Shown one piece after another: positions 18,691 through 64,000 of a stretch of DNA of 64,000 nucleotides. The number at the start of each line of letters is the position of its first letter. Within the stretch, counting starts at the first letter, position 1. The notes below the pieces were generated by a model that ran no database searches, was not told where the DNA came from, and worked only from the letters and a program-made list of their open reading frames with translations. This DNA comes from Candidatus Desulfofervidaceae bacterium (GTDB taxonomy: Bacteria > Desulfobacterota > Desulfofervidia > Desulfofervidales > Desulfofervidaceae). The DNA is taken from positions 1 through 64,000 of the forward strand of contig JAMOPI010000033.1 in assembly GCA_027064585.1 (NCBI GenBank), given 5' to 3'. The translations under genes were made by a program, and so were the position numbers.

Positions 18691-18721
18691 CACTCAACCC
18701 CCTCAATGTTTTAACAAGTCT

Positions 18722-34527: not shown

Positions 34528-34572
34528 CACTCAACCCCCCTTGCAAAGCTAAAAAGAAAAAAACAAAAAAAA

Positions 34573-39883: not shown

Positions 39884-39894
39884 GGGAGTAGATG

Positions 39895-41817
39895 ATGCCA
39901 AAACGTCATGTTTATTTGAAAATGACACCATTAGAAGAGGCAAGGCGTATTTTTTTTACGGCCTTTGATTTTAGAGATTATCTAAAGACCGAGTGTGTGC
40001 CCACGACCGAGGCCTTAGGAAGGGTAACGGCCAGGCCCATCTTTACCCGTTTTTCTTCTCCCAATTTTCACTCGGCGGCCATGGATGGTTATGCGGTAGA
40101 GGCAAGCGTTACTTTTGAGGCATCTTTAGAACATCCCAAGGAATTAAAAGTAGGCAAAGAGGCCTTTCCTATAAACACTGGCCATCCCTTACCAGATAAT
40201 ACTAATGCGGTAATTATGATTGAAGACGTGGTAGAAGAAGGGGATAAAATCATCATCCGTAAGGCAGTTTATCCCTGGCAAAATGTGCGCAAGGTAGGCG
40301 AAGATATCGTTGCCACTGAACTTATTTTGCCTCCTTGCCATCAAATCACCCCTTATGACATTGGCGCCCTTTTAGAGGGCGGTATTTTTGAGATAGAAGT
40401 CAAGCAGCGGCCCAAAGTGGTGATTATTCCCACGGGTAATGAAATTGTTCCTATTGAAAAGGTAGACAAAGAAGGACCTAAAAAAGGCGAGGTTATTGAG
40501 TCCAATTCATGGATGTTACGGGCCTTATTAACCAGGGTGGGGGCTATATGCGAAAAGTGGCCAGTGGTGCCAGATGAATATGATTTATTAAAAGAAACAA
40601 TCGCCAAGGCCATAGATAGCGATGCCCATCTCATTATTGTCCTGGCTGGATCCTCAGCTGGTAGCAAGGATTACACCGCCTCGGCCCTGGAAGAACTGGG
40701 TGAAGTCCTGGTGCATGGTGTCACCATTATGCCAGGGAAACCCACAATTTTAGCTAAGGTGAAAAATAAACCCATTATTGGCAATCCTGGCTATCCAGTG
40801 TCTTCTGTTATTTCCTTTGAACAGTTTGCCCTACCTCTTCTTTCGCGTATGCTGGGCATTGTTTATGAAAAAAGGCCAAGAATAAAGGTCTTTCCTGCCC
40901 GGGCCTTGCCTTCAAAACTGGGTATTGAAGAATTTTTACGGGTAAAGCTTGGTAAAGTAGGGAAAAAGGTAATTGCTACATCTCTGCCACGGGCGGCGGG
41001 TTCTATTACCACTCTCACCAAGGCGCATGGAGTTATTCGCATCCCGGCCCAAAAAGAAGGCATTGGGGAAGATGAGCCGGTAGAGGCTGAACTCCTCGTG
41101 CCAGAGGAGGAAATTTTAAATACCATTGTCATTATTGGTAGCCATGATTTAACCATTGACTTACTTGCTTCGGAGCTAAAGAAGGTAAATCCATTTTTAA
41201 ATATCTCTGCCAGTAATGTTGGCAGCCTTGGTGGTTTAATGGCCATAAAAAAGGGAAAGGCACACTTAGCCGGTTCGCACCTTTTTGATCCAGAAACCGG
41301 TATTTACAACCTGACCTACATTGACCGTTATTTAAAGGATGTGCCCGTAAAAGTTGTAAATCTGGTCATCAGACATCAAGGCCTAATCGTCCCCAAAGGT
41401 AATCCCAAGGACATTAAAGGCATTGAAGACTTAACCCGTCCAGACATTACCATGGTCAACCGCCAGCGTGGGGCGGGAACGCGTATTTTGCTTGATTATA
41501 AGCTTAAACAGTTAGGTATTGATCCTAGTCAGATCAAAGGCTATGACCATGAGGAGTTTTCACACATGGCTGTAGCTGTAGATGTACTGAGTGGGCGAGC
41601 CGATGTAGGACTTGGCATCTATGCGGCAGCTAGGGCCCTTGGACTTGATTTTATTCCCATTGCTACTGAAGAATATGACCTTGTTATCCCAGAACAATTC
41701 TGGCATACAGAAAAGATTCAAACGATTTTAGAATTGATAAATTCTTCGGACTTTAAGCAGGCCATAGAAAAGATGGGAGGATACGAAACCACTAAGACTG
41801 GCACCATTAAGCGATGA
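39895..41817 (+). CDS. MoeA fused to a C-terminal periplasmic-binding-like domain
   Basis: This ~640-residue protein has an N-terminal MoeA domain (residues 1 to about 410) with FHSAAMDGYAVEASV, IIPTGNEIVPIEK, LAGSSAGSKDYTA and GNPGYPVSSVISFE. A C-terminal type 2 binding-protein fold (about 415-640) has SHDLTIDLLASELKK, NRQRGAGTRILLDYKLK and the terminal VIPEQFW. This is the known MoeA/PBP-like fusion family, in which the second domain (PF12727) resembles molybdate- and LysR-type ligand-binding domains. There is no signal peptide, so any ligand would be sensed inside the cell. ATG codons occur at 39892 and 39895; GGGAG spacing favours the second. It follows the HEPN gene by 11 bases, and its stop overlaps the smc start. 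Confidence 0.9.
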   Translation: MPKRHVYLKMTPLEEARRIFFTAFDFRDYLKTECVPTTEALGRVTARPIFTRFSSPNFHSAAMDGYAVEASVTFEASLEHPKELKVGKEAFPINTGHPLPDNTNAVIMIEDVVEEGDKIIIRKAVYPWQNVRKVGEDIVATELILPPCHQITPYDIGALLEGGIFEIEVKQRPKVVIIPTGNEIVPIEKVDKEGPKKGEVIESNSWMLRALLTRVGAICEKWPVVPDEYDLLKETIAKAIDSDAHLIIVLAGSSAGSKDYTASALEELGEVLVHGVTIMPGKPTILAKVKNKPIIGNPGYPVSSVISFEQFALPLLSRMLGIVYEKRPRIKVFPARALPSKLGIEEFLRVKLGKVGKKVIATSLPRAAGSITTLTKAHGVIRIPAQKEGIGEDEPVEAELLVPEEEILNTIVIIGSHDLTIDLLASELKKVNPFLNISASNVGSLGGLMAIKKGKAHLAGSHLFDPETGIYNLTYIDRYLKDVPVKVVNLVIRHQGLIVPKGNPKDIKGIEDLTRPDITMVNRQRGAGTRILLDYKLKQLGIDPSQIKGYDHEEFSHMAVAVDVLSGRADVGLGIYAAARALGLDFIPIATEEYDLVIPEQFWHTEKIQTILELINSSDFKQAIEKMGGYETTKTGTIKR

Positions 41818-48851: not shown

Positions 48852-50684
48852 TTATTTAGCACAAGATTTTTTTATCTTCTCAACTTCTTCTATTACTTGT
48901 CTTATTTCTTCTTCCTCTGGATGTTTTTCTAAGTATCTCTTGTAAACTTCATAAGCATCTTCTACCTTTCCAAGCCCTATCATGATTTGCCCACAGTTCC
49001 AGATAATGTCTCTGTTATCAGGGGCAAGCTCCACTGCTTTTGTTATGTGATACAGTGCCTTTTCTATATCCTTTTTTTGCCAGTAGATAAAGGCAAGGGT
49101 ATTGTGAGTAAGAGCATGAGACATATTAAGCTTTAAAACTTCTTTAAATCGTTCCAGTGCCCTTTCCGTTTGGCCTTGTTGTAAAAGACTCGTTCCTTCT
49201 TGGAAGAGCAAATTAACTGTTGAGCTTTCCACCAATTGAAAGAGCTTAACTCCGTTTAGAGGCATATTATTTTTAATACTTTCTTCGCAAAGTTGCTTGA
49301 AATAACTAACTTTCAGCAAATCATCCTTACGATAAATGTGAAACGCAGGGTAATACGTATCTACAAATAGCTGAAATCCAAGTGAAACTGATCTTATGCA
49401 AAAGTGCCTATCTTCACCTATAAGACTTATGTTATAAAGAGGGGAAAAATTTACCTTTTTTTTCATTGCTTTTTGAGAAAGCAAGGTGCATGCCCCTAAT
49501 CCCCCTACTTCATAAGTACCTGGCTGAAGGAGCAAGAGATAAATAGCTTCTTTAAGCCGATTTTGTTTATCTTGGGAAGTTATGCTTTCTCTTCTTAACC
49601 GTTTATATAAAGTATAATCATCCATAAACCAGATTTGGGGGAGAGGAGAAGTATCAGGATACCATTTAGTCCAAAAAATATTTGAAATAATGTCCTTTTT
49701 TCTTCTTATTAATCGCTTTAAAGTATATGGATGCAGAATCAAATCTGAATCAACTAAAAAGAGATAATCATAGCCTTTTTTAAAGGCATAAGAGATAATT
49801 TTATTTTTAAACGCTGCTACTCTCCAAATAGTTGTTTCTTTCCAGCTATGATAATTTTCACCGCGTTTATAAGGATTTAAAACGGCAATTTGCCAAATGA
49901 TAGTGGATGGGTGTTTATTTTTAAAATCTAACAATAAGGTTGAGGAGGTTTGATTTTCATTATTGTCAATAAATAAAAAGTCTACTTGAAGTCCAGTTAT
50001 GTCTAATGCCGAAAGAGAAACAAGAAATTCTCTTAATATCTCTGGCTCTTGCCTTACAGGAGAAGCTATTAAGACCTTAGGATTTGCAGATAAGGGTTTT
50101 AAAGGAAACTTTTTGTCTAAAATGGCGACAAATTGGACGCCATCCATACTGACATTGGTAGTAAAATCTTTATGCACGGAAAAGCCCTTTTGGGTAAAAA
50201 ATGACTCTTTAAAGCAAAAGACCTGTTTTTCTGAAGGTTCTTGTTCTGCCCGCACTAAAATAAGAACATATCTCTTAGAGACTTTTATCAATTCTTCTAA
50301 GACCTTCTCAGGCTCATGAAGATGCTCAAGTATATTTGAACACACAACCAGATCAAATCTTTTTTTAGTCTCTTTAGAAAGATCAAAGATGTCTGCGACA
50401 AAAAAGTTTGATCTTAAATAAGGAAACTTCTGCTGGCATTTTTTTATTATCTCTTTAGAAGAATCACATCCATATACTTTGGCAAATGGAAAGTGGATAG
50501 TAAGCAGATTAACCATCTCGCCAGTAGCACATCCTACATCTAAGATGGAAATAGGTGAGGTGGGGAGGAAATAGATGTTTTTAATTACAATTTCAGCCAA
50601 ACGCTGCGTTTGCTGGAGCCCGCCTTTGTGTTCCCAGTCTTTATCAAATCTTGCATCCCAGTAAACCTTTGAGTTAATTTCCAT
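48852..50684 (-). CDS. Fusion protein: SAM methyltransferase, glycosyltransferase, TPR tail
   Basis: This 610-residue soluble protein has three parts. Residues 45-150 form a class I methyltransferase with SAM motif ILDVGCATG (47-55) and VCSNILEHLHEPEKVLEEL. Residues 202-450 look like a GT-A glycosyltransferase, with LIASPVRQEPEILREFL, DFLFIDNNEN, the metal-binding VDSDLILHP (311-319) and SLIGEDRHFC (420-429). Residues 490-600 are TPR repeats with AFIYWQKKDIEKALYHITKA and ELAPDNRDIIWNCGQIM. The TPR tail closely resembles that of the 1110-residue protein at 53265, although the DNA has diverged. It is the last gene of the glycan island, 72 bases downstream of the epimerase gene. The substrate is unknown. 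Confidence 0.75.
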   Translation of the reverse strand: MEINSKVYWDARFDKDWEHKGGLQQTQRLAEIVIKNIYFLPTSPISILDVGCATGEMVNLLTIHFPFAKVYGCDSSKEIIKKCQQKFPYLRSNFFVADIFDLSKETKKRFDLVVCSNILEHLHEPEKVLEELIKVSKRYVLILVRAEQEPSEKQVFCFKESFFTQKGFSVHKDFTTNVSMDGVQFVAILDKKFPLKPLSANPKVLIASPVRQEPEILREFLVSLSALDITGLQVDFLFIDNNENQTSSTLLLDFKNKHPSTIIWQIAVLNPYKRGENYHSWKETTIWRVAAFKNKIISYAFKKGYDYLFLVDSDLILHPYTLKRLIRRKKDIISNIFWTKWYPDTSPLPQIWFMDDYTLYKRLRRESITSQDKQNRLKEAIYLLLLQPGTYEVGGLGACTLLSQKAMKKKVNFSPLYNISLIGEDRHFCIRSVSLGFQLFVDTYYPAFHIYRKDDLLKVSYFKQLCEESIKNNMPLNGVKLFQLVESSTVNLLFQEGTSLLQQGQTERALERFKEVLKLNMSHALTHNTLAFIYWQKKDIEKALYHITKAVELAPDNRDIIWNCGQIMIGLGKVEDAYEVYKRYLEKHPEEEEIRQVIEEVEKIKKSCAK

Positions 50685-50756
50685 TTCTCAACTCCCTTTT
50701 GTAATTTAAAACAAATACAATATGAAGGAACTGGCTTCATACCCAAAAGTCTGCTC

Positions 50757-51881
50757 CTATATTTTATAAAAATCTCTTTTTATAATATTGAAAATCCGTT
50801 CACTGGCATTACCATCTCCATATATATATGAAACCCTTGCCATTTTTTTATAAACACTTTTATCGGAGATTAAAAGAGAGGCCTCTCTAAAGATTAGATT
50901 TTCATCTGTCCCTATAAGTTTGGCTATGCCTGCTTTTATACCTTCAGGCCTTTCGGTTTCTTTTCTTAAAACTAAGATGGGCTTTCCTAAAATAGGAGCT
51001 TCTTCTTGAATACCTCCTGAATCTGTAAGAATGAAATAGCTTTTTTTCATAAACCAGACAAGAACAGGATAGGACACAGGAGGCAATAGATGAATATGAG
51101 GAATGTCTTTTAAAATTGTTTTTACCGTTTCTTCTACCTGAGGATTGAGATGAACAGGATAAATAATCTCTATCTCCTCCGCAAAAGTCAAGGCAAGTTT
51201 TTTTAAGGCCAAACATATCTGTCTAAGCGGTTTACCAAAACTCTCCCGCCGATGGGCAGTAACCAGAAGGAGTTTTTTGGAAAAATCAATAAAGTTAAAC
51301 TCTTTCTGATACTTATCCTCTAATTGATTGTGCTCAATTATCTTTAAAGCCTCTAATAATGCATCAACCACTGTATTACCCACCACAAAAATTCTTTCTT
51401 TTTCCATTCCTTCCCTTAAAAGATTTTCCCTTGCTCCCTTGGTGGGACAAAAGTGATAGTCAGCTAAATGAGAAATAAGCACCCTGTTTATTTCTTCAGG
51501 ATAAGGGGCAAACTTGTTAAAACTGCGAAGACCTGCCTCTATGTGAGCTACAGGTATCTTGTGATAAAAACAACTAAGAGTAGCCGCAAAGGCAGAAGTA
51601 GTATCACCCTGGACAAATATCAATTCAGGTTTTGATTCAGACAAAACCCATTCAATTCCCTGAATTACCTTACAGGTAACCTGGCTAAGGGTCTGTTTTT
51701 TTTCCATTATCTTAAGATCATAATCAACTGGAATTTTAAAAAAATCCAACACTTGTTTTAGCATCTCCATGTGTTGGGAAGTAATACAGACCTTTATCTC
51801 AAAGGTATTTTGAAATCTTCTTATTAGAGGAGCCAGTTTAATCGCCTCAGGGCGGGTGCCAAAAATAAATAGTAAGCTCAT
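50757..51881 (-). CDS. wecB: UDP-N-acetylglucosamine 2-epimerase (non-hydrolysing, WecB-like)
   Basis: This 374-residue GT-B-fold epimerase converts UDP-GlcNAc to UDP-ManNAc or acts on a related sugar. It starts LFIFGTRPEAIKLAPLIRRF and contains FVQGDTTSAFAATL, VAHIEAGLRSFNKFAPYPEE, LVTAHRRESFGKPL and the terminal TDSGGIQEEAPILGKP. These are the standard non-hydrolysing epimerase motifs; a hydrolysing NeuC role is less likely but cannot be excluded. The start overlaps the preceding stop by four bases. It could provide a ManNAc-type precursor in the same island as NeuB. Confidence 0.88.
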   Translation of the reverse strand: MSLLFIFGTRPEAIKLAPLIRRFQNTFEIKVCITSQHMEMLKQVLDFFKIPVDYDLKIMEKKQTLSQVTCKVIQGIEWVLSESKPELIFVQGDTTSAFAATLSCFYHKIPVAHIEAGLRSFNKFAPYPEEINRVLISHLADYHFCPTKGARENLLREGMEKERIFVVGNTVVDALLEALKIIEHNQLEDKYQKEFNFIDFSKKLLLVTAHRRESFGKPLRQICLALKKLALTFAEEIEIIYPVHLNPQVEETVKTILKDIPHIHLLPPVSYPVLVWFMKKSYFILTDSGGIQEEAPILGKPILVLRKETERPEGIKAGIAKLIGTDENLIFREASLLISDKSVYKKMARVSYIYGDGNASERIFNIIKRDFYKI

Positions 51882-53224
51882 TCCGAATACTTCTTTCCTA
51901 ATAATTCAAGCACAGTTTTAGCCCGATGTTTTAAAGTATGACTTTCTATCGCCGTTTTATAAAGTTCTTCTGAAATTGCTTTTCTTTCGTCTTCATGATG
52001 TAAATAATAATCTATTTTTTTTAGCAACTCGTCAACTGTCTTAAAAGTAAACTCTTTGTAACAGGTAGGAAAAAGGTCTTTAAATATCTCTTTATAATCA
52101 GTTAAAAAGAAGGCTTTAGAAAAGATAAACATAAAACTTCTTTCCTGCGTGCTTGTATCAAACACTATGCGGTGAATATTTAAATTAATAGCTGTCATAC
52201 CAAAAATAATAGGCAAAAGTAACCAGTGGGCAGGTCCCCTATATTTTACATTAGGGTGTTCTTTAAATTCCTTAGGGACACAAGTTCCAAATAAAATAAG
52301 GCGGTGGTGGTTTATTATTTCTTTTAAAATAAAATACCGCATATTTTCAAAATTAGCTCCTATCTGATTACAAATTATTTCTAATTTTTCCCAACCTTGA
52401 CTTGGCCACACCGTAAACACTTCTCTCATAAGTTGGTGAATAAAATTGTAACCAAAGTCTTGTTTTTTCAAGATTAAATGTTTGTTTACTATTTCTGTTA
52501 GCTCTTTTGGTAAATGGCAAACTGGTTTATGGAAGTTGCCAACAAAACTTATAGGATAACTTTTAGGCATATTTTCAGTAGGATAACTAAATTCTGCCGG
52601 GGCATAATGAGGAAGAAAGTAAACATTTTTTATTCCAAAATTTTTAAAAAAGCTACACCATTGCTTTTCGTGGCAAAGAATTATAAATAGCTCATTATAA
52701 GCTCTCATTACTTCTAAAGTTTTCAATGAGGTTAAACTTCCATCCTTCCATAAGGGCAATTCTCCAATAAGCACCACGATAGGACACCCAATTTTAAAAA
52801 AATCAACCCGAGGAATAACACCTCTTTTTATAAATTCTTCTTGATTTGCTACCCAATTGTGAGCGTCAAAAATAAAATCAGGATTGATGGTTGTTAAAAT
52901 ATTTTGAAAATCAGAAATACGTTTATTTGCCATATCTATAAGATAAACACTATAGCCCAATTCATAAAAATTTTTAGCCCACATAAGAGAAAAAATGTTA
53001 TGCGCAGGTGCATAGTCAAACCTTTGGGCAGCCTCAAAAATGATTATTTTACCCAATTCTTTCGGATGAATAAGGGGGGTAATCTTTAAATTTTCTTTGG
53101 ATGCCAGATTGAACACAATATCGTTTTTATTAGAGATATATAATTTGTTAAAGATTTCTACAAATTTATCTATCGGCATCTCAAACCGTTTGTTTAAACT
53201 ATCAATAAATATAACCTTTCTCAT
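51878..53224 (-). CDS. CgeB-like GT-B glycosyltransferase, paralogue B
   Basis: This 448-residue protein is clearly paralogous to the 424-residue protein at 56602. Both share a central block with (G)ELPLWK(D/E)GS, IKNVYFLPHYAP, YPISFVGNF, ENMRYFI and NLHR(I/V)V. The C-terminal block runs from QERSFMFIFSKAFFLTDYKE to HTLKHRAKTVLELL. The C-terminal part resembles the Glyco_trans_1_2 / CgeB family, where a nucleotide-sugar-binding loop with FLTDY precedes a helical end. No membrane segments or signal peptide are visible. It sits between the 1110-residue transferase and the epimerase. The donor and acceptor are unknown. Confidence 0.6.
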   Translation of the reverse strand: MRKVIFIDSLNKRFEMPIDKFVEIFNKLYISNKNDIVFNLASKENLKITPLIHPKELGKIIIFEAAQRFDYAPAHNIFSLMWAKNFYELGYSVYLIDMANKRISDFQNILTTINPDFIFDAHNWVANQEEFIKRGVIPRVDFFKIGCPIVVLIGELPLWKDGSLTSLKTLEVMRAYNELFIILCHEKQWCSFFKNFGIKNVYFLPHYAPAEFSYPTENMPKSYPISFVGNFHKPVCHLPKELTEIVNKHLILKKQDFGYNFIHQLMREVFTVWPSQGWEKLEIICNQIGANFENMRYFILKEIINHHRLILFGTCVPKEFKEHPNVKYRGPAHWLLLPIIFGMTAINLNIHRIVFDTSTQERSFMFIFSKAFFLTDYKEIFKDLFPTCYKEFTFKTVDELLKKIDYYLHHEDERKAISEELYKTAIESHTLKHRAKTVLELLGKKYSE

Positions 53225-53264
53225 TTTCGTCCCTTAACTCTCCCCTGTTTTAAAGGCTTGTAAA

Positions 53265-56200
53265 CTACAACATTTCTTTTTCAATCTCTTCAATTATTTT
53301 TTTTATTTCTATTTCTTGAGGATGTTTTTGTAAATATCTTTTATAAATGTCATAGGCATCCTTCGTTCGTCCAAGGGATAGCATAATTTGACCACAATTC
53401 CAAATGATATCTCTATCATCTGGTGCAAGTTCTAGGGCCTTAGTTATGTGATAGAGCGCCTTTTCTACTTCTTTTTTATGCCAAAAAATGAAGGCAAGGG
53501 CATTATGAGCAGGGGCATAAGATGAATTTGATGTTAAGAGATGATCAAGCATCTGAATTGCCTTTTGCTCTTCGCCTTTTTGAAAATGTGCCTCAGCATT
53601 TTCCATAATATTTTTATAATAAAGATCTTTAGCCTCTTCTAGAAAGGCATTAAGATATTCCTGTGAAGTTGGATTAAGGATTAAAAACACTTCTAACACC
53701 TTTAATCTCTCTTTAGGAGGAAGGGTTTTCCAAGAAATAGGTGGATTTTCATGTTTAAGCTCTTCCACTAATGCATCTATTTTATCAAATGATATCTTTG
53801 CCTTGCCTGTCTGGTTGTAAACAAAATCTTCTACTCCTTTAAGATAAGCATAAACTAAAGATAATTTATGGTTAATCATAAAATATGTATTTTTAACTCT
53901 TTCAAAACTTGCTAAAAAAACCTGAGGAAAATGCTTATAGTTAAAAAGTAGTTCATTTCTTACCGCATAGTATATACTAAAAGGAGTTTTAAGCCATCTA
54001 CCTGCAGTTTCTCCCCCTTTATGATATACCTTAGAATATGGATTATACCACACCTCCCAGCCAGTTTTGATGGCTCTAATAACGATATCATTATCATCAT
54101 AATAGAAAAAGTAGTCTTCTTCTAAGAACCCAATTTTTTCTATAAGTTCTTTTTTTAACAAAAGGCTTGTTCCTGAGATAAAATTTACTGGTTTGGGAAA
54201 GTCTTTTGTATCAGGAACTCCTTCTCCATAAGCCACAAATCTTTCTCCCCAAAATTGGACTTTTTGGGGATGGGTATAGCAATAAATTTTACTACCTACA
54301 ATGCCAACCTTTTCATCTTTTTCAGCCAATTTAACAAGCTCTACCAGCGCATCTTTATCTATTTTAGTATCTGGATTTAACAGCCATATATAATCTACCT
54401 TGTTTTTAAGCGCTATTTTAATGCCAATATTAGCTCCACCTGCAAAACCAAGATTCGTTTGGTTGGTAATAAAAACCACTGTCTTCGGTTTAAAACAAAA
54501 CTCCTCTTGGTCTGTATATACATCAATCCCCATTTTACGGAGATGTTCTAAAATAATCTCAATAGAATTATCCTTTGACGCATTGTCAACAAGAATTATT
54601 TGAAAATTCTTATAGGCAGCACTAAAGATACTTTGAAGACAATTGATCGTATCTAGCGGGCATTGATAGTTGACAACAACAATGGCCACTTTTTTGTTTG
54701 GAATGTGAGTATCAAGTGGGGTGCATACCTTCTTTAAAATCAAAGGAAGCTGAGAATAGGTTACTTTTTGGGGTCTTAAGTCAGGTGGAATTTCTAGAGA
54801 TAGGGACTTAAGTTGCTCTTCATCCTCAATTAAATAATGTCCCATACAGATATGAGGTGGGATCAAGCAAGATTTTGTGATCTCATTTAAAGAAGAACAT
54901 TTGAATAAGACAGGCATCTCTATCGTCCAATCAAGTTTAGATGTATATGACTTCCAGTATAAATTTTGTTTTATGCTCCATATAGATATGTCAGGATACT
55001 GAGAAATAAAAGCAAGAGCCTTTTTTAACTCCTCTGGTTCATAGATGATATTTTTGTTGCCAAGCAGATAGTAATCATATCCCTGGATGCTTATTTCTCT
55101 TATGTTTATTTTTCTTATGATTTCTGAAGCTCTATTTACATCATTAGATGGAAAAGTAAAAATTTTTATCTTCTTTTCTAAATCGGGGAAAGAGTAAAGT
55201 CTTTGTAAAAGCTCAAATTTGGAAGAAGTAAGAAGAAAAATTTTATCAACTGGTTTATAACTTGAAAAAATGGAAAGCGGTAAGAGAAAAGGCCTTTGGG
55301 ATATGTGAACATGAGGTAAAAGATATAGGGCGGCAACTTTAGCGTTTTTGTCCTGTCTCGGTAGAAAAAGAGAACCTTCTTCCTTCCAGGAGAAAAATGC
55401 CAGTCCTCCCTTTTTCCCTTTGCTTAATTCACCCTCCACGGTAGCCTCTACAACTCTCTTACACTCCTCCCACTGGGTATGATAGTGAGTATTTGAACCA
55501 ATCAAATCAGGATGAATAATAATAGGTACAACATCACAGATCTTTGCCGTTAATAACACCGTTGACCAAAGACTTACTACATATTTAACTGGTAATTGAA
55601 ATAGAATATCTTCTGTAATCAAAGAGGGTGAAAATAAAAAAACCTTTTCTTTAGGGAATTTTTTTAAGACTTTTTCATATTTTTCAATTTTTTCGGCAGG
55701 ATGTGGTTTTATCCCTATAGTTAAATCTTTCTCTAAGAAGAACTTAATTACCTGTTGTCTAAATTCGTCTGCCTTTAAGGAAGAGGTGTAGTTGTATTCT
55801 TCCAAGGGAGAAGTAGAGAAAAGGACATCTACAGGAGTGAAATTTAAAGGATTTTTTTCTGCCCTTTTTTGAAGAAGTTTTTTGAAAGAATTTGTTATAT
55901 GGGAATTTAACTTAAATTTAGTCCCTTCTCTATCCAATAGGTATCTTTTGGTAATATAAAAGAAATTATCCTGGTTTAATTGCTGAATTTGAGGCGATAA
56001 GACCGAAAAGATTGAATTTACCGCCTGCCAAAAGGTAAAAAGGCCTTTATATTGATTATCTTGAAGGTCTTTTTTATACACTCCTTCTGTCGCTTTGGCC
56101 GAAAGATAACTACCTCCACCTTCGTCATAGGCAACAAATATAGGCTGATAAAGCTTCCAGAGTTTTACATCAAATAACCCGATACATAAATTTAAAGCAG

Positions 56201-56597
56201 AAAGATGAGACAAAGGCGAAAGAAAATATACCGACTTAAGAGGATAGCGAGTGATTTTTTTTATTTCTAACAGGCTGGTTTGGGCATTTTTTATAATACT
56301 CTGGAACAGCCTTTCATCATGTCTTTCAAATGCATGAGGCCGAGCTACGATAAAATTAATGTTTGGATGGTCTTTAAATAGAAAATAAAAGTTTTTTACC
56401 ATTATTCCGTGTTTAAGGTGAGGAATAATAATAATTTCTCCCTGAACATCTGGATTAACTTCTGCTAGTTCGTTCACAAATGCTTCTACATTTAGGGCAT
56501 GAAAGGGAGAAATTAAAAGAGCAATGAAATCTAATGGTTGTTGTGTTAACCGATGCCTTAAATACTCAAAGATGTCTATCGTTCTGATCTCTTCCAT
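53265..56597 (-). CDS. Giant fusion: sialyltransferase-like domain, GT2 domain, TPR tail
   Basis: This 1110-residue protein has at least four regions. Residues 20-380 resemble bacterial GT-B sialyl/polysialyltransferases. They carry FVAYDEGGGS with the D-E-G motif at 158-160, GIKPHP with H-P at 299-300 and SLWST at 342-346, the three motif types essential in that group. Residues 440-600 are of unclear type. Residues 636-900 form a GT2 rhamnosyltransferase-like domain with VAIVVVNYQCPLDT, LVDNASKDNS, NLGFAGGANIGI, LLNPDTKID and YDDNDIVIRAI. Residues 995-1100 are TPR repeats nearly the same as those of the 610-residue protein. No membrane segment is evident. It is flanked by two CgeB-like paralogues. 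It probably adds two successive sugars; identities are unknown. Confidence 0.7.
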   Translation of the reverse strand: MEEIRTIDIFEYLRHRLTQQPLDFIALLISPFHALNVEAFVNELAEVNPDVQGEIIIIPHLKHGIMVKNFYFLFKDHPNINFIVARPHAFERHDERLFQSIIKNAQTSLLEIKKITRYPLKSVYFLSPLSHLSALNLCIGLFDVKLWKLYQPIFVAYDEGGGSYLSAKATEGVYKKDLQDNQYKGLFTFWQAVNSIFSVLSPQIQQLNQDNFFYITKRYLLDREGTKFKLNSHITNSFKKLLQKRAEKNPLNFTPVDVLFSTSPLEEYNYTSSLKADEFRQQVIKFFLEKDLTIGIKPHPAEKIEKYEKVLKKFPKEKVFLFSPSLITEDILFQLPVKYVVSLWSTVLLTAKICDVVPIIIHPDLIGSNTHYHTQWEECKRVVEATVEGELSKGKKGGLAFFSWKEEGSLFLPRQDKNAKVAALYLLPHVHISQRPFLLPLSIFSSYKPVDKIFLLTSSKFELLQRLYSFPDLEKKIKIFTFPSNDVNRASEIIRKINIREISIQGYDYYLLGNKNIIYEPEELKKALAFISQYPDISIWSIKQNLYWKSYTSKLDWTIEMPVLFKCSSLNEITKSCLIPPHICMGHYLIEDEEQLKSLSLEIPPDLRPQKVTYSQLPLILKKVCTPLDTHIPNKKVAIVVVNYQCPLDTINCLQSIFSAAYKNFQIILVDNASKDNSIEIILEHLRKMGIDVYTDQEEFCFKPKTVVFITNQTNLGFAGGANIGIKIALKNKVDYIWLLNPDTKIDKDALVELVKLAEKDEKVGIVGSKIYCYTHPQKVQFWGERFVAYGEGVPDTKDFPKPVNFISGTSLLLKKELIEKIGFLEEDYFFYYDDNDIVIRAIKTGWEVWYNPYSKVYHKGGETAGRWLKTPFSIYYAVRNELLFNYKHFPQVFLASFERVKNTYFMINHKLSLVYAYLKGVEDFVYNQTGKAKISFDKIDALVEELKHENPPISWKTLPPKERLKVLEVFLILNPTSQEYLNAFLEEAKDLYYKNIMENAEAHFQKGEEQKAIQMLDHLLTSNSSYAPAHNALAFIFWHKKEVEKALYHITKALELAPDDRDIIWNCGQIMLSLGRTKDAYDIYKRYLQKHPQEIEIKKIIEEIEKEML

Positions 56598-56601
56598 CTG
56601 A

Positions 56602-57876
56602 TTATTCCTCTCTGTAAGGTAAATTTAATACTTCTAAAATTTCCATCGCTCTATGCCGCAGTGTATGCTTTGAAATGGCTGTTTGAAATAGATATTCAGC
56701 TATTTCCATCCTTTCTCTGTTATGATTTAGGTAATATTCTATTTTGTCTTGGAGTTCTTTTAAATTTTTAAAACAGATTTCTTTATACACTTCAGGGAAA
56801 TAGGTTTTAAAGAGCTCTTTATAATCAGTAAGAAAAAAGGCCTTAGAAAAGATTAACATAAATGTTCTTTCTTGAGTAGAATAGTCATAAACTACACGAT
56901 GAAGATTGAGATTAATTACAGACATGCCGAAGATTACTGGCAAAGACAACCACATTGCCGGCCCTTTATAGTCTACATTAGGATGATATGTAATGTCCCT
57001 AGGGACATTACAACCAAAGAGTGTTAGTTTATATTTCTGAATTAAATTTGAAATAATAAAATATCGCATATTTTCGCACCTACTGCCTAAACAGGAGTAA
57101 ATTTCAGCTATTTTCTGCCAGGAAAGAGAGGGGGCGAGTTCATATAACAAGTTTTTGATCATAGGATAATCAAAAGAAGATTTTTTGTGTTCTAAATGTG
57201 TTTCTATAAAAGCATTAATTTGTGGTACATCTTCTGGTTTGGTAAAGTTACCTACAAAAGAGATAGGATATATTTTAGGTAAAGAGTGAGTAGGATAGCA
57301 AATTTCGTGAGGAGCAAAGTGAGGAATAAAATATACATTTTTAATACCTAATTGTTTACAAATTTCCAGCCAGCTCTTCTCTATACAAAAAAGAAAGAAA
57401 TTTTCTTTTTTACACCTTTCTAAATCTTTTAGAGATATACTTCCTTCTTTCCATAAAGGGATTTCTGTAATTGTTATTACTAACGGACAATGTTTATATT
57501 GCAACCCAAGAGGTGCTCTAAAAATCATACTGGGAGAAGAGCGATTTAAAAGCTCATATAAATTGTTCCATTCCTGCTGATTTTCAGGGGGAGGCAGAAG
57601 GTCCACATTATAACCTAGCTCATAAAATGCCTTTGCCCACATAAAAGGAAATACAGAATACGCAGGGGCAAAGGCAAAATTTATTTTTGAGCTAAACACA
57701 ATAATGGAACCTAGCGGATCAGGATGAGGAAAGTGAAAGTTATATTTGGGCATAGGAAGTTGAAGGACAATATTTTGGTTAGCAGATAAGGTCTGGTGTA
57801 AAAATTTTATAAATTTGTCTAGTTCAATTTCAAACTTATTTTGTTGACAATCAACAATAACCAGTCTAGGTGACAT
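56602..57876 (-). CDS. CgeB-like GT-B glycosyltransferase, paralogue A
   Basis: This 424-residue protein is paralogous to that at 51878. Shared features include an N-terminal half with APAYSVFPFMWAKAFYELGYNVDLL, then ITEIPLWKEGSISLKDLE, IKNVYFIPHFAPHE, YPISFVGNFTKPEDV and ENMRYFII. The C-terminal half has DYSTQERTFMLIFSKAFFLTDYKELF. The fold is probably GT-B with a group-1-like C-terminal half. It lies four bases upstream of the 1110-residue gene, so the two are surely co-transcribed. A weak GAGGAAGG lies upstream of the start, rather far away. The acceptor is unknown. Confidence 0.6.
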   Translation of the reverse strand: MSPRLVIVDCQQNKFEIELDKFIKFLHQTLSANQNIVLQLPMPKYNFHFPHPDPLGSIIVFSSKINFAFAPAYSVFPFMWAKAFYELGYNVDLLPPPENQQEWNNLYELLNRSSPSMIFRAPLGLQYKHCPLVITITEIPLWKEGSISLKDLERCKKENFFLFCIEKSWLEICKQLGIKNVYFIPHFAPHEICYPTHSLPKIYPISFVGNFTKPEDVPQINAFIETHLEHKKSSFDYPMIKNLLYELAPSLSWQKIAEIYSCLGSRCENMRYFIISNLIQKYKLTLFGCNVPRDITYHPNVDYKGPAMWLSLPVIFGMSVINLNLHRVVYDYSTQERTFMLIFSKAFFLTDYKELFKTYFPEVYKEICFKNLKELQDKIEYYLNHNRERMEIAEYLFQTAISKHTLRHRAMEILEVLNLPYREE

Positions 57877-58052: not shown

Positions 58053-59000
58053 TTAATCTTTTTGTAATACTACGAAATTAAAAGCTCCATATCCACCTTT
58101 GGTTTCCTCTAACTCTATCTTAAACAATTCCATAACCAAAGGAAATAATTCTTCACACCATTTTACCTTAACTTCAAATCTCTTTTTAGGAGATAGAGAA
58201 TTTGCCATTTCAATAAGATAAGGGCTAATAGGTCTCAGTCCAACATCCCAAAAAGTTAAGGTAGTTTTACCCAAATAGGTCTCATATTTTTTAATTTTTA
58301 AATTTGTATTCTTTTCAATCTCTTTTTCAAACTCATCTAAATCTTTTACCCACATTAACGTTTCTGCCCTATTTCGATTTATCAACTTCCAAAATTCAGA
58401 TATTTTAGATAACTTATAACTTCTACAAAATTCTAAAAATTTCTTATTAGGAAAAACTATTACTATTTTCCCTTTTCCAACGAGATTTTGTTCCCAATTA
58501 TTCAAAACTCCAATAGGATCTTTCAACCAATATAATATATTAGAATAAACTAAATCAATTTTTTTATCTTGAAAATCAAGAGGATTATTAGCATCTGCTT
58601 TTTTCACTTCCTCAATAAATCCTAATTGATAAGCTTGTTTCAGCAAAGTTTCCTTAATGTCTATTGCTAGAACTATTTTTTTGTCAGGGGTAGAATTTAC
58701 ATAATAGGAAATTTTAACATCATCTTTTACTACATCATAAATATCTTTACCCTTCCAAAATCCTTCAGTATTAACATTATAATACCAATCATATTCTGGT
58801 TTAAATCTCCCTCCCAAAGTCATGAATGTAAAATACCCATTTCCTACTCCTACCTCAAGAATTCTATTTCCCAATAAAAGTTCTTCCCCAATAAGGATAG
58901 ACGCTCTGGTATTCCAAACAACTTTTTCCATCCTCAACCATTCCATATATAAAAATTCTTTTAATCTATTTTCTACTTTCTCTTCTTCTCTAACCCTCAT
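58053..59000 (-). CDS. Class I SAM-dependent methyltransferase
   Basis: This 315-residue protein has the SAM-binding motif ILEVGVGNGYF (47-57) and an acidic motif II region KKIVLAIDIKETLLKQA. The motif IV/post-IV region is KKIDLVYSNILYWLKDP. The N-terminal charged helix and the C-terminal extension differ from ubiquinone-type methyltransferases. It lies 22 bases after the radical SAM gene. A sugar or amino-acid N- or O-methylation in the glycan pathway is plausible but not shown. Confidence 0.65.
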   Translation of the reverse strand: MRVREEEKVENRLKEFLYMEWLRMEKVVWNTRASILIGEELLLGNRILEVGVGNGYFTFMTLGGRFKPEYDWYYNVNTEGFWKGKDIYDVVKDDVKISYYVNSTPDKKIVLAIDIKETLLKQAYQLGFIEEVKKADANNPLDFQDKKIDLVYSNILYWLKDPIGVLNNWEQNLVGKGKIVIVFPNKKFLEFCRSYKLSKISEFWKLINRNRAETLMWVKDLDEFEKEIEKNTNLKIKKYETYLGKTTLTFWDVGLRPISPYLIEMANSLSPKKRFEVKVKWCEELFPLVMELFKIELEETKGGYGAFNFVVLQKD

Positions 59001-59022: not shown

Positions 59023-60141
59023 CTATTCTCCTATAACTTGTTTCCTTCCTACATAATTTCTTACAAGAATCTCCCGCCCATTTACAATTGCTTTTTCAGA
59101 AACCTCTGTTTTGCGTGGATAATAACATTTTCTACATACCTCTATCTCTTTAAATCCTTGCGGCTTTTTGTGAATATCTCTAACTCTATTTATCTTTTCT
59201 CCGTGCCAAATGTCATACACGCTTTCTTTATTTACATCTCCAATTATATATTCTCCCTCTTCATCATTTGCACAAAGCAATACTTTACCATCGCTACCAA
59301 TAGTAAGCCGTTGATAAATTTGCGGGCAAGAAAAATTCTCTTCATACACAATTTTTTTGTCTTTTCTTAAATAATCTATCAAAGGGTTAAATGCCACCAA
59401 GTCAGTTAGTGGGGCAAATGTATTGTAATATTCTGCAGGGTTTTCCCTTATAGCAGGCCAAATAGTTTGGACCTTTATTACAGGTTTTATTAAATTATGC
59501 TTTTCACGGTATTCTTTTATCTTTTTTAGATTTTCAAGAATCCAGTTAAATTTCAAAGGTTTTCTAATACTTTCATACACTTTACCTATGCCATCTATTG
59601 AAATGCTTATCCAATCTATACCTGCATCTACCATTTTTTTAAAAAAATCTAAAGTTAATTTACTTCCATTTGTAAGGGTTGAAATTTCTTGTATACCTTT
59701 TTCTTTGGCATATTTTATGGCGTTTAAAAAATTAGGATGAAGGGTTGACTCTCCTCTCAAGCTTAGTCTTATGGCGTAAACCTTTCCCGCAATTTCATCT
59801 ATTATTTTTTTAAAAAGTCCAAGGTCCATAAATTGTCTTTTTACTTTCTTTTTAAACTCTTCCGTAATGGTATAACACATAGGACAAGAAAGATTACAGG
59901 CAGATGAGAGTTCTATATCTACCAGAAGAGGATATTCTCTGACTATTTTTTTCTTTGGAAGCTCTATCCAAAGTCTTCGGTATTCTTTATATTCTTCCTC
60001 CCACCCATGGGCAAGTTTTTCAAAAAAGGCCTTTTCTCTCTCTGGCGTATCAAGATTAAAATGACCTTTGCTTATGGGAATAGTAGTATTCCCTTCTTTG
60101 ATTTCTGTATTAAAAAAACTCTGCGAAAGAGGAATAGACAT
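59023..60141 (-). CDS. Radical SAM protein with SPASM-like C-terminus
   Basis: This 372-residue enzyme binds a [4Fe-4S] cluster through Cys82, Cys86 and Cys89 in SACNLSCPMCY (C-x3-C-x2-C). It has a GGE-equivalent LSLRGESTLHP and the ISISIDGIGKVYESIRKPL strand. The C-terminal part holds FSCPQIYQRLTIGSDGKVLLCANDE and EVCRKCYYPR, which matches auxiliary-cluster (SPASM/twitch) proteins. Related enzymes dehydrogenate, epimerise or deaminate sugars and peptides. Its position between the FemAB-like and methyltransferase genes suggests action on a glycan intermediate. The substrate is unknown. Confidence 0.8.
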   Translation of the reverse strand: MSIPLSQSFFNTEIKEGNTTIPISKGHFNLDTPEREKAFFEKLAHGWEEEYKEYRRLWIELPKKKIVREYPLLVDIELSSACNLSCPMCYTITEEFKKKVKRQFMDLGLFKKIIDEIAGKVYAIRLSLRGESTLHPNFLNAIKYAKEKGIQEISTLTNGSKLTLDFFKKMVDAGIDWISISIDGIGKVYESIRKPLKFNWILENLKKIKEYREKHNLIKPVIKVQTIWPAIRENPAEYYNTFAPLTDLVAFNPLIDYLRKDKKIVYEENFSCPQIYQRLTIGSDGKVLLCANDEEGEYIIGDVNKESVYDIWHGEKINRVRDIHKKPQGFKEIEVCRKCYYPRKTEVSEKAIVNGREILVRNYVGRKQVIGE

Positions 60142-60159: not shown

Positions 60160-61158
60160 TTAAGTTTTATCTTTAGTTTTATCTTTTCTCACCTGAAAAT
60201 ATTTCTTTAAATCCCCTCCAAACGAAAGTTTAAACCAGCCTCTCTGTGGACTGTTCACACCTTCCATATTTACCCGGCAAATTCCTTTCTCCGAAAGAAT
60301 TCTGAATGTTTCCCATATACAAAAGGTAGCATCATGTCTCGTCATTTTATCCCGTAAACCTGCGGCAAAGAGATAAATACTTTCATTTAAAAGGTAGCTA
60401 AATACGGTTATATAGCTCAGCTCTCCTTTATAATTTTTTACTCCTGTCATAATACCTATGTTTTTATTTATGATGTTTTTTATGACATCACAAAGTCTAG
60501 TTAAAAAAGACTCCTTCACTTCTACTCCTTGTTCCTGCATCATTTGGGCATAGTAATCAGTAAAAAGAGAGGTATTTTTACTTTCTAATAATACAATTTG
60601 AGAACCTTTTTTTATGGAATTTTTAACATCTGCTTGTCTTTTATTTTCCATATTTTTAAAAAGTTCCATTTTTTCATAAGACTTTTTTAGAAAGAATTCT
60701 GATATATCAATAAAGCTAGTATATTTTAAGATTAAATTAAATTTGTCCTTTGGATTAGAAGAATGGTAATTATGCCATAAAAAAGGGCGCAAATCTTCAA
60801 AGAATGGGCTTAAACTCATTTCTATTTTGCTGAATTGCTTGTCAAATTCTTCTATGACAAATTCTGTAATCTCAAATTCTTCAAACCTTTTTCTTACAGT
60901 TTTTTTATCAGGAACCGGCAAGAACATAATTCCATTATAAATAACAAGGTCATCTATTTCACATCCACTTTCATCCTCCGTCAATATTACAGAAACACCT
61001 GCTCTTATCTGGTCTCCCTTAAGAACAAAATAATTTTTATATTTCCTACCTACAGCATCCAGATAGCGGATATCACAAAAAACTGTAAATTGAGGAGACT
61101 CTGACATTATTTGATTCCATTTTTCTCTATCTGCCTCAACTAATTTATATTTCGGCAT
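60160..61158 (-). CDS. FemAB/GNAT-type aminoacyl- or acyltransferase-like protein
   Basis: This 332-residue protein resembles the double-GNAT FemAB family, which moves amino acids from aminoacyl-tRNA onto peptidoglycan precursors, and related acyl-CoA N-acyltransferases. The C-terminal half has the characteristic run ESIYLFAAGLRDKMTRHDATF, then WETFRILSEKGICRVNMEG, and ends GWFKLSFGGDLKKYFQV, matching the K-x-x-F-G-G-x-L terminus of the family. Its start shares one base with the stop of the DUF4910 gene. In this island an aminoacyl or acyl group could be put on a sugar amino group. The lysine-rich end KDKTKDKT is unremarkable. Confidence 0.65.
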   Translation of the reverse strand: MPKYKLVEADREKWNQIMSESPQFTVFCDIRYLDAVGRKYKNYFVLKGDQIRAGVSVILTEDESGCEIDDLVIYNGIMFLPVPDKKTVRKRFEEFEITEFVIEEFDKQFSKIEMSLSPFFEDLRPFLWHNYHSSNPKDKFNLILKYTSFIDISEFFLKKSYEKMELFKNMENKRQADVKNSIKKGSQIVLLESKNTSLFTDYYAQMMQEQGVEVKESFLTRLCDVIKNIINKNIGIMTGVKNYKGELSYITVFSYLLNESIYLFAAGLRDKMTRHDATFCIWETFRILSEKGICRVNMEGVNSPQRGWFKLSFGGDLKKYFQVRKDKTKDKT

Positions 61159-62486
61159 TATTTCTCCTCCTTGCGAAGAAGGAGTCCCTTGTTTTCTAAT
61201 TCTACAGCGATTTCATAAATATCTTGTAAATTGATCTTAAGCTTTTTGCTTATATTATACAAGCTTGTGTTTCCGTCACAATAAAACATCAAATAAAGAG
61301 CTATTTCATGTCTTTTCAACCTACTTTCCGGTAAAAATGCCCCTCCTAATTTTGGATAAAGATCATATTTACTTAAAAACACCTCACAGTGTTTTTTAGT
61401 TGCTTCATAAAAAATATTTTTATCAAGATAATTTAAAATAAGATGAAGATATAGATTTAAAGACTGATTTATAAACTCAGCCCTTACAAAGTTTAAATCA
61501 TCCAAAGAAGTATGATAATAGGGATATTCATAATATTTATCTTTTGTAATGGTAATACAGTTGATTCTAAAAGCTTGAGAAGAATACTGCCTTTCATCAC
61601 TTCCAGCTAAAGAAAAAGGATATTTTATAAAATCATTTATGCCCAAATCAGCAAAGACATCCTCCACCATTTGGTTAATTTCATCTTTTTCATCAAAAGA
61701 CATTTTGTACCCAAACTTTCCTGGACCTCCACAGGTTGTAATAACTAAACCCATATCTATGTTCTTCATCTCTTTTTCATTATGGGCACAGTAACTTATA
61801 GCACCTATCGTTTCTGGAACAAAGATAATTCTATACGAATAATTTAGTCTTTTTTGGTGTTTAAGCAGCTCTCTTGCGATAAAAACAGTAGTAATTATGC
61901 CACTTAAGTTATCGTTTGCCAGATTAGGATGGCAGATGTATGTGGAGATAAGATACTCCTTTTTACTTTTTCCTTTTATAAGGACTTCTCCTATACTTAA
62001 AGAGCCTTTTTTAAAAGTTGCATCTATAAAAACCTCATAATTCTCATCTTCTCTGAAGTATTTTTTAAGATGGTTATAACTCAAGCAAAAACCCCAATTT
62101 TGAGTGTAATAAAAAGTTCTATATGGAATAGCTTCTTTTAAATTAGGTAAGTAATAAAGGTGTTTTTGAAGTTCAGAAAAAGATAAAATTTTGTGAACAG
62201 GCTGAGAATAAAACACAACATGAAGGGGATTATTTTTATAGTCAAGGATGACTTCTCCCTTACTGTTTTTTATCCATGCCTCTTTTATTTCCCATTCAGG
62301 TGGAATAACCCAGTCATAAACGTTTTCCCCTGAAGGATATTCAACTATATTTAATTCTGGCACTAACCCTTGTAAAATTTTTAATGTTTTACGCGTTCCT
62401 TCACCCGTAATACTCCTAGGAATGGGAAACAATTTTTTTAAGAGTTCATTTATTTCTTTGGTATAGTCCACCTTTAACAGCTTCAT
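61158..62486 (-). CDS. DUF4910-family zinc-peptidase-like protein with winged-helix C-terminus
   Basis: This 442-residue protein of the DUF4910 family has a fold like M28 zinc aminopeptidases and a C-terminal winged-helix-like domain (about 370-442, TSLYNISKKLKINLQDI). Metal-ligand-type motifs are STYICHPNLANDNLSG, FVPETIGAISYCAHNE and AGSDERQYSSQAFRI. The N-terminus has FPIPRSITGEGTRKTLKIL, conserved in the family. Such genes recur in nonulosonate and other surface-glycan clusters, but their reaction is unknown. The start overlaps the neuB stop by four bases. Confidence 0.75.
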   Translation of the reverse strand: MKLLKVDYTKEINELLKKLFPIPRSITGEGTRKTLKILQGLVPELNIVEYPSGENVYDWVIPPEWEIKEAWIKNSKGEVILDYKNNPLHVVFYSQPVHKILSFSELQKHLYYLPNLKEAIPYRTFYYTQNWGFCLSYNHLKKYFREDENYEVFIDATFKKGSLSIGEVLIKGKSKKEYLISTYICHPNLANDNLSGIITTVFIARELLKHQKRLNYSYRIIFVPETIGAISYCAHNEKEMKNIDMGLVITTCGGPGKFGYKMSFDEKDEINQMVEDVFADLGINDFIKYPFSLAGSDERQYSSQAFRINCITITKDKYYEYPYYHTSLDDLNFVRAEFINQSLNLYLHLILNYLDKNIFYEATKKHCEVFLSKYDLYPKLGGAFLPESRLKRHEIALYLMFYCDGNTSLYNISKKLKINLQDIYEIAVELENKGLLLRKEEK

Positions 62487-63538
62487 TCTTCAAGCATTTC
62501 CCATTTTAGGATTTCATCTTCTCCTATATCCCTTCTTGCCCTTTTTCCTATTACCTCTTCTAAAAATTTTGGACTTATGCCGTAGGCTGGTCGTTTAAAA
62601 ATTAAATCTTCTTTTTGAATAACCTTCCCCTTAGGAATAAAGTTTTTAGCTACAATACTTCTTCTGGCATTTTTACGCGAAATTTCCTCAGAAGAAAGAG
62701 GCTGTTTTTTGAATTGACCAATAATATTAAAGATTCTCTCTAAATTGTGTTTAAACAATTTTAAGTCTCCTTTATCCATGGCGTGATAATGGTCATTACC
62801 TGGCAGTGTTTTATCAAAAGTAAAATGTTTTTCTATCATTTTGGCTCCAAGCAACACGGCTATCTCTAGAACCTTCATATCCTTTGGCAGAGTATGGTCT
62901 GAATATCCTATAATTTTATCTGGGAATTTTCTCTTTAAATCTAAAATCATTCCAAGATTAGCATCTTCTTCTTTAGTGGGATAATTTAACACACAGTGAA
63001 GAAGAGCAAGCGGATTTCCATATTTTTCTATCCATGATACTGCTTCTTCTATTTCCCATAAATAAGAGGCTCCTGTAGAGAGAATAATAGGCTTACCAAA
63101 TTGGCAGATATATTCTATAAAAGGTTTGTTAGTAATATCCGCAGACGCAATTTTAAAAGCAGGCATCAAATCATTTAAAAACTTTGCACTCTCAAAATCA
63201 AAGGGCGTGCTTAAGAACTCTATTCCTACTTTATCACAGTATTTTTTCAATTCCTCGTATTCTTTTTTCCAAAATTTATCGTATTTTTTAAAAAGTTCAT
63301 ATTGACTTGTAGTTGGCTCTTTAGTAGTATCCCAATATGCAGGTGAATATTTAGAAGCAAGTGTTTCTGCTTTGTAACTTTGAAATTTAATCGCGTCTGC
63401 CCCTGCTTCTTTTGCCTCGTCTATCAGCCTTTTGGCTAATTCCATACTACCTTCGTGATTTACACCTGCCTCTGCTATAATGTAAGGAAATGACAAAAAA
63501 GAAGATAATTTACCTTTAAAAAGTTTCTGTATTTTCAT
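62483..63538 (-). CDS. neuB: N-acetylneuraminate/legionaminate/pseudaminate synthase (NeuB family)
   Basis: This 351-residue enzyme condenses phosphoenolpyruvate with a six-carbon amino sugar to give a nine-carbon nonulosonic acid. The TIM barrel contains IIAEAGVNHEGSMELAKRL, GADAIKFQSYKAETL, FLSTPFDFESAKFL, IASADITNKPFI, LSTGASYLWEIEEAV, GYSDHT and the metal-binding GAKMIEKHFTFDKTLPGNDH. A C-terminal SAF/antifreeze-like domain (about 290-351) starts RRSIVAKNFIPKG. Whether the product is sialic, legionaminic or pseudaminic acid cannot be read from the sequence. The adjacent SpsG/PseG-like gene favours a 2,4-diacetamido sugar, i.e. the latter two. Confidence 0.9.
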   Translation of the reverse strand: MKIQKLFKGKLSSFLSFPYIIAEAGVNHEGSMELAKRLIDEAKEAGADAIKFQSYKAETLASKYSPAYWDTTKEPTTSQYELFKKYDKFWKKEYEELKKYCDKVGIEFLSTPFDFESAKFLNDLMPAFKIASADITNKPFIEYICQFGKPIILSTGASYLWEIEEAVSWIEKYGNPLALLHCVLNYPTKEEDANLGMILDLKRKFPDKIIGYSDHTLPKDMKVLEIAVLLGAKMIEKHFTFDKTLPGNDHYHAMDKGDLKLFKHNLERIFNIIGQFKKQPLSSEEISRKNARRSIVAKNFIPKGKVIQKEDLIFKRPAYGISPKFLEEVIGKRARRDIGEDEILKWEMLEE

Positions 63539-63547
63539 TTTTACTCC

Positions 63548-64000
63548 TCAAAATTTTATGTCATTGCCTTGGTCTTTCCAGTCTTCATATTTATCTAAAA
63601 TTAACCTAGAAACTCTATATAGTCCCTTTCTTATCTCTTTAGCTACTTCTTGAAGTTCTTTATTCAATTGCTGGCGGAGACTGTAATTTTCAACTAATTT
63701 AATAATAGTATTTATAATACATTGATCACTTACTTCAGAAGCTATGCCTAAATATCTAATTGCTGGATGGACAGCTGCAAAGGTATGCCCTGCCTCTCTA
63801 ATATTTTGTCCAATTACAATCAAAGGAGTTCCTAACGCAACCACTTCATACACCATCCGTCCATTAGCGATTATAGCTATATCTGCTTCAAATATATAAG
63901 GTGCCATCCAAGTAACATCAGTCACTACTTTTATACATTTACTTAACGTTGACTTTTCTATTAAATTTAAAAGTCTTTTTTTTCTCTCTTCACTATAACC
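63548..64000 (-). CDS. SpsG/PseG-like nucleotide-sugar hydrolase, C-terminal part
   Basis: The frame is open to the window edge and continues outside; about 150 C-terminal residues are visible. The sequence runs from GYSEERKKRLLNLIEK at the edge through MAPYIFEADIAIIANG, RMVYEVVALGTPLIVIGQN and REAGHTFAAVHPAIRYLG. This GT-B C-terminal domain with an S/NGR-x-x-YE-x-x-ALG-x-P pattern matches PseG/SpsG-like proteins. These remove UDP from a diacetamido sugar before NeuB acts, and are often fused behind a CMP-nonulosonate cytidylyltransferase. A GTG at 63925 is an internal codon, not a start. The gene precedes neuB by nine bases. Confidence 0.7.
   Translation of the reverse strand, partial: GYSEERKKRLLNLIEKSTLSKCIKVVTDVTWMAPYIFEADIAIIANGRMVYEVVALGTPLIVIGQNIREAGHTFAAVHPAIRYLGIASEVSDQCIINTIIKLVENYSLRQQLNKELQEVAKEIRKGLYRVSRLILDKYEDWKDQGNDIKF

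Follow-up and report, generated by a model that had tools for sequence, protein, structure and literature searches.

Two enzymes of different chemistry, encoded in one glycan-synthesis gene cluster of the sulfate-reducing bacterium Candidatus Desulfofervidaceae, end in the same short C-terminal tail of three TPRs, and this tail recurs on many other enzymes, both in other genomes of the phylum and in other phyla. Throughout the phylum, genes with such tails lie close to flagellin genes more often than control TPR genes do. As a whole, we give about an even chance to the explanation that the tail docks enzymes onto their substrate in cytoplasmic protein glycosylation, with flagellin as the most likely acceptor.

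Two unlike glycan enzymes with one homologous tail

Both genes are located on the reverse strand of the window, i.e. the whole stretch of 64,000 nucleotides analysed here. Protein A (610 residues, 48852..50684) combines a methyltransferase (Methyltransf_25, residues 47-137, 50274..50546, Pfam E 4e-16) with an Anp1-like/GT2-like glycosyltransferase (Anp1-like match at residues 196-341, 49662..50099, E 2.6e-6, at 27.5 bits just below the Pfam cut-off of 28.8) and the TPR tail (residues 493-605, 48870..49208), delimited by BLASTP, profile and AF2 model. Protein B (1110 residues, 53265..56597) consists of a polysialyltransferase-like domain (A-2_8-polyST, PF07388, residues 25-353, 55539..56525, E 2.3e-15), a GT2 domain (Glycos_transf_2, residues 639-822, 54132..54683, E 5.5e-18) and the tail (residues 996-1109, 53271..53612, BLASTP and profile). 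Both open reading frames and the dissimilarity of their catalytic parts thus agree with a preliminary description of this DNA. A full-length model of A, based on a two-row alignment, reached a mean pLDDT of 51.7 and was discarded.

Residues 493-590 of A and 997-1094 of B are identical at 55 of 98 positions (56%, 134 bits, E 1e-36), and this is the sole significant BLASTP match between the two proteins, with noise-level matches elsewhere. When the A tail was searched in its own genome, the B tail was the next-best match (65% over 93 amino acids, 144 bits), while the third-best reached just 28% and 26 bits and nothing comparable was found beyond A and B, i.e. the two tails are more alike than generic TPRs. 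The nearly identical terminal block noted earlier is therefore one homologous three-TPR module, but with its capping helix it spans about 113 residues rather than the roughly 90 originally given. The DNA of the two tail blocks is identical at 186 of 247 positions (75%, with small gaps), and Nei-Gojobori estimates for the tails (pS 0.69, pN 0.23, dS 1.9) yield a dN/dS of about 0.15, a rough figure because dS is near saturation. Protein likeness maintained by selection despite diverged DNA, as first proposed, is in line with these values.

In the best tail tree, the tails of A and B form the closest pair, albeit weakly (74/37). The tail of the A-type protein in the sister genome (G001) is 71% identical to the GT2-type tail of G004 vs. 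59% to the tail of A, but we do not claim a tail swap between genes because the tree has little resolution there and a clade of A and G001 was not rejected (AU p 0.105).

A specific TPR subfamily on many different enzymes

Applied to 395 genomes of the phylum, a family profile built from eight tails assigned 185-190 bits to the tails of A and B vs. about 97 bits or less to ordinary TPRs. The window family and G043 scored 173-198 bits, G075 169 and G164 158, followed by one match each in G138, G254, G351 and G164 at 103-113 bits. The border near 100 bits is not sharp because a continuum that includes ordinary TPR proteins begins at 97 bits. Matches at E 1e-16 were present in 56 of the 395 genomes. 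Judging from these scores, the tail is a specific TPR subfamily and not a generic TPR. Scanning 84,980 species genomes for a single conserved pattern returned 36 loci, approximately the first 11 of them convincing in length and identity, while PLSDB plasmids gave no match.

The search for the TPR block across related genomes that had been suggested earlier recovered it on many different enzymes, and 17 non-redundant tail proteins were compared. Alignment A2 and the tree leave out L069, L096 and L130 (almost identical to the first protein of L094), L070 (a duplicate of L100) and two TPR-only proteins, from L071 and L072 (in G254 and G351, best copies 105 and 102 bits), the latter two being counted in the flagellin-linkage numbers below. 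Glycosyltransferases are common carriers, e.g. the A-type protein of G001 (55-56% identity to A along its entire length), a GT1-GT2-tail protein in G003 (504-column match to B, 48%), a GT2 fragment with tail in G004, GT9-GT2-tail in L093, GT1-tail in L097 and a 509-aa tail protein in G043 that is GT2-like by eye and by a weak BLAST match. Other fusions involve a sulfotransferase with GT2 and tail (G075), FrhB, a pyruvyltransferase, GT9 and GT2 with tail (L095), and radical SAM with a methyltransferase and the tail inside the chain (G002). Locus L094 encodes two tail proteins, one with radical SAM/SPASM and a methyltransferase and one with radical SAM. Radical SAM is also found in two proteins of L098, the third one there bearing the tail N-terminally with TPRs alone recognised, as in the fragment of L100. 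At L098:3679-13626, in a member of Nitrospirota (Thermodesulfovibrionia), the tail occurs on several genes close to each other, in three strong copies plus a weak fourth, and most of the proteins bearing it are radical SAM.

The tail can also be missing. In G001, one protein resembles B in its GT2 region (40% identity); its alignment with B reaches no further than residue 996, at the start of the tail, and the protein stops 15 residues further on, without a tail, hence the tail behaves as a detachable cassette that enzymes have gained or lost. Homologues lacking the tail, which the preliminary description had named as evidence against its own idea, are represented by this one case.

Conservation of the groove

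The predicted tail structure (AF2, mean pLDDT 95.9) comprises three TPRs and a capping helix with a single groove; among solved structures, designed TPRs, OGT, SPINDLY and peptide-bound Hop TPR1 are some of the closest in fold. We take positions 2, 5, 6, 9, 12 and 13 of standard TPR numbering to line the concave groove. In a 15-row alignment, mean conservation was 0.585 at concave vs. 0.461 at outer positions (p 0.0014). Generic TPR segments of these loci (n = 71) did not show this difference, with values of 0.201 and 0.243, respectively. This contrast is conservative, since selecting the generic segments with the same profile should have favoured family residues. Four residues are invariant in all 15 rows (numbering of A): N528 (TPR2-5), W535 (TPR2-12), R558 (TPR3-1) and N563 (TPR3-6), and generic segments share them in 34/69, 11/70, 4/69 and 37/71 cases, respectively. 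Glu at TPR1-9 is present in 14 of 15 rows, the exception being A itself (Thr). Conservation of the groove beyond that of the outer face points to one kind of ligand that all tail members may bind. Together with the occurrence of the tail on chemically unrelated enzymes, it also lends good support, at the sequence level, to the shared docking partner envisaged in the preliminary description.

The gene cluster of A and B

A and B lie within one run of glycan-synthesis genes, all on the reverse strand, that also contains untailed WecB and GT-B genes. Between A and B are a WecB-type UDP-GlcNAc 2-epimerase (50757..51881, TIGR00236, 471.6 bits, above cut-off) and a GT-B protein of 448 aa (Glyco_trans_1_2/DUF3880-like, 51878..53224), and on the other side of B follows a GT-B paralogue of 424 aa (56602..57876). 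The two GT-B proteins flanking B are 45% identical; gene duplication seems to have enlarged the cluster. Further genes encode a methyltransferase-domain protein (58053..59000), a radical SAM/SPASM protein (59023..60141), a FemAB-like protein (60160..61158, a weak match under the Pfam cut-off), a DUF4910/DUF2172 peptidase-like protein (61158..62486) and a NeuB-type nonulosonic acid synthase (62483..63538, above the Pfam cut-off, with NCBIfam subtype models below theirs). The window ends within a 576-aa fusion of a PseF-like cytidylyltransferase and a PseG-like part (L051:548-2278, NCBIfam scores below cut-off), with its C-terminal part at 63548..64000 and the remainder running on to contig position 65278. 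The cluster appears to encode the synthesis of a nonulosonic acid, and we leave the sugar unspecified because the NeuB, PseF and PseG subtype models score below cut-off.

NeuB was found in the genome containing the window (G000) and not in G001-G005; given that G001-G004 carry the tail without NeuB, the tail is not tied to a nonulosonic sugar. The N-terminal half of the B-like protein is readable in three genomes (G000, G001 and G003), and the polyST domain is present in G000 only. As only this genome has both NeuB and polyST in the position of B, the polyST domain of B might use the CMP-nonulosonate made by the adjacent genes, a suggestion that comes from one genome.

No flippase, polymerase or exporter was recognised among the cluster genes. 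Genome-wide, a single model for Wzx-type flippases (PF01943) gave no match, while 13 of 14 controls have one, and the only ABC2_membrane match is located outside the cluster, beside genes that look Gld-like by eye. A cytoplasmic glycan without a PF01943-type or ABC transporter fits protein glycosylation. Elsewhere in the window, two 400-aa proteins (17491-18693 and 33328-34530) are 99.75% identical and resemble a duplicated EF-Tu pair by eye, and two neighbouring MoeA-type proteins (37913-39148 and 39892-41817) were observed, the second one fused to a PBP-like domain.

Linkage to flagellin genes

Of the 46 genomes that had both a hit and a flagellin match, 23 had their best hit no more than 25 kb from a flagellin/FlgL-type gene; no flagellin was found in 10 of the 56 genomes with a hit and these were dropped from the denominator. 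As a control, the strongest TPR_16 matches from 33 of these genomes were used, and 6 of 96 such genes lay within the same distance. A more inclusive control, restoring 13 TPR genes that had been left out as hits, of which 8 by hand count lay no further than 25 kb from flagellin, gave 14/109 (p 2e-6 vs. 23/46). Linkage did not rise with score, as seen in the counts per class (at least 150 bits, 3/7; 100-150, 2/3; 80-100, 4/10; 70-80, 7/10; 60-70, 7/16). The weaker hits include TPR proteins of flagellin loci, of a sort already known, and the strictest set (at least 150 bits, 3/7) yielded p 0.06 vs. the inclusive and 0.01 vs. the other control, so that this set taken alone is only suggestive of flagellin linkage.

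Individual loci illustrate the association. The GT1-GT2-tail gene of G003 is 7 kb away from flagellin, with FlaG, FliD and FliS adjoining, and in G043 flagellin, FliD and FliS are on the near side of the island, flagellin being within about 10 kb. Similar distances apply to L097 (within about 10 kb) and G002 (within 19 kb), and the L094 island, similar to that of G043, ends at a FliK gene. Tail genes lie in or near a flagellin locus in G002, G003, G043, G254, G351 and L097, but not in the genome under study, where the A/B cluster and flagellin are on different contigs (C33 vs. C15); in the sister genome they are 102 kb apart. The flagellin of our genome (401 aa, L060:8940-10145) has flagellin N and C domains, and its locus already contains a GT2-TPR protein with a TPR region unlike the tail of A and B. 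GT2 gene runs adjoining flagellin in G254, G351 and G187 (L127, L128 and L131, respectively) encode proteins of about 376-397 aa that consist of TPRs only and have tail-like blocks.

Docking, assembly or surface glycan

Docking by TPRs is a mechanism of a known kind. According to PMC7591256, the N-terminal TPR part of Caulobacter FlmG binds flagellins in two-hybrid tests and docks them for a GT-B catalytic part with pseudaminic (nonulosonic) acid as donor. A and B likewise have a TPR region on the same chain as a glycosyltransferase, as found by Pfam, their host has a flagellin gene and their cluster is nonulosonic as well, but the TPRs are a short C-terminal tail of three repeats on two unrelated enzymes, which would bind flagellin by analogy. 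Maf-1 shares the C-terminal position of the TPR. PMC13317340 (citing Unay 2024) states that this region confers flagellin acceptor specificity in nonulosonic acid transfer, and it treats TPR repeats as a marker for flagellin glycosyltransferases of Clostridium. The catalytic part of Maf-1, however, is Maf. For the genome under study and 11 others, PF01973 (MptE-like), a model that presumably covers Maf proteins, gave no match.

The comparison with OGT- or HMW-type systems made in the preliminary description did not hold for the catalytic parts, as no GT41 or HMW1C-type domain was among the best 25 of 33 families for A or among all 23 for B. By sequence, no solved natural TPRs are closer to the tail than those of OGT, which also rank among the closest by fold and share a groove with conserved Asn residues, although OGT has a long superhelix instead of three TPRs; the analogy would thus be confined to the TPR fold and groove. 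Among the titles listed by our literature searches, largely of open-access papers, there was no published account of the shared tail. What seems new is that a single conserved tail is found on enzymes with different chemistry, including two from one cluster.

In the docking explanation, a single groove built from the three TPRs and the capping helix would bind a peptide and thereby recruit unrelated glycan enzymes to a common cytoplasmic partner, on which A and B would add and finish a glycan containing nonulosonic acid. We infer that the ligand is a protein peptide and that A and B share it; the likely partner, given the gene neighbourhoods, is flagellin, which would be modified before export. 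Counting against this explanation are the separate contigs of the A/B cluster and flagellin and their distance in the sister genome, the modest linkage of the strictest set, the different GT2-TPR protein already encoded at the flagellin locus, and the tail-bearing genomes that lack NeuB. A rather unlikely but serious contender is that the tail is an assembly domain by which enzymes dimerise or gather through TPR-TPR or TPR-scaffold contacts without touching the acceptor. Group 2 capsule polymerases of the Cps1B type are also multi-domain transferases with a terminal TPR region, and according to PMC5974469 these regions comprise about 400 aa and serve oligomerisation, which is lost in Cps1B without its TPR domain while the enzyme is still active. 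Unlike in Cps1B-type systems, no capsule ABC export genes accompany the A/B cluster. Tailed A and B share one gene run with untailed WecB and GT-B genes, and more than one tailed protein is encoded at some loci, with three at L098 and two at L094 scoring at least 98 bits, as would be expected from gathering enzymes. However, the conserved positions are concave and not on the outer face, which a peptide ligand fits better than side-by-side contact, and assembly alone would not lead to phylum-wide flagellin linkage.

That the product of the cluster is a surface polysaccharide or lipooligosaccharide, with the tail docking at a membrane or envelope assembly protein, is in our view unlikely. Glycosyltransferases, a 2-epimerase and nonulosonic acid genes are found in many surface-polysaccharide clusters and this one is unlinked to flagellin in its own genome, yet the lack of recognisable flippase, polymerase and exporter genes in the cluster and the genome-wide results for PF01943 and ABC2_membrane argue against it. 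Highly improbable is a passive duplication, in which recombination copied the tail between neighbouring genes and the tail provides generic TPR stability only. The pairing of the A and B tails in the tree is what recent copying would give, and the B-like protein of G001 does without a tail, but dN/dS is low despite near-saturated synonymous change, the same module is found in other phyla on unrelated enzymes, and conservation is specific to the groove.

The docking explanation is directly testable, because the short tail is detachable and nature provides a homologue that lacks it. We further consider it possible, though tentatively and with less confidence than docking itself, that the tail is a standard three-TPR adaptor, passed between genes and phyla, that targets chemically unrelated enzymes to flagellin and turns the flagellar island into a plug-in assembly line, where any enzyme (glycosyl-, sulfo-, methyl- or pyruvyltransferase, or radical SAM) could reach the filament protein by acquiring a tail. 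If true, this would account for the way in which chemically different enzymes reach a single cytoplasmic acceptor, and would provide a sequence signature for flagellin-modifying enzymes, including radical SAM proteins and sulfotransferases, in uncharacterised islands.
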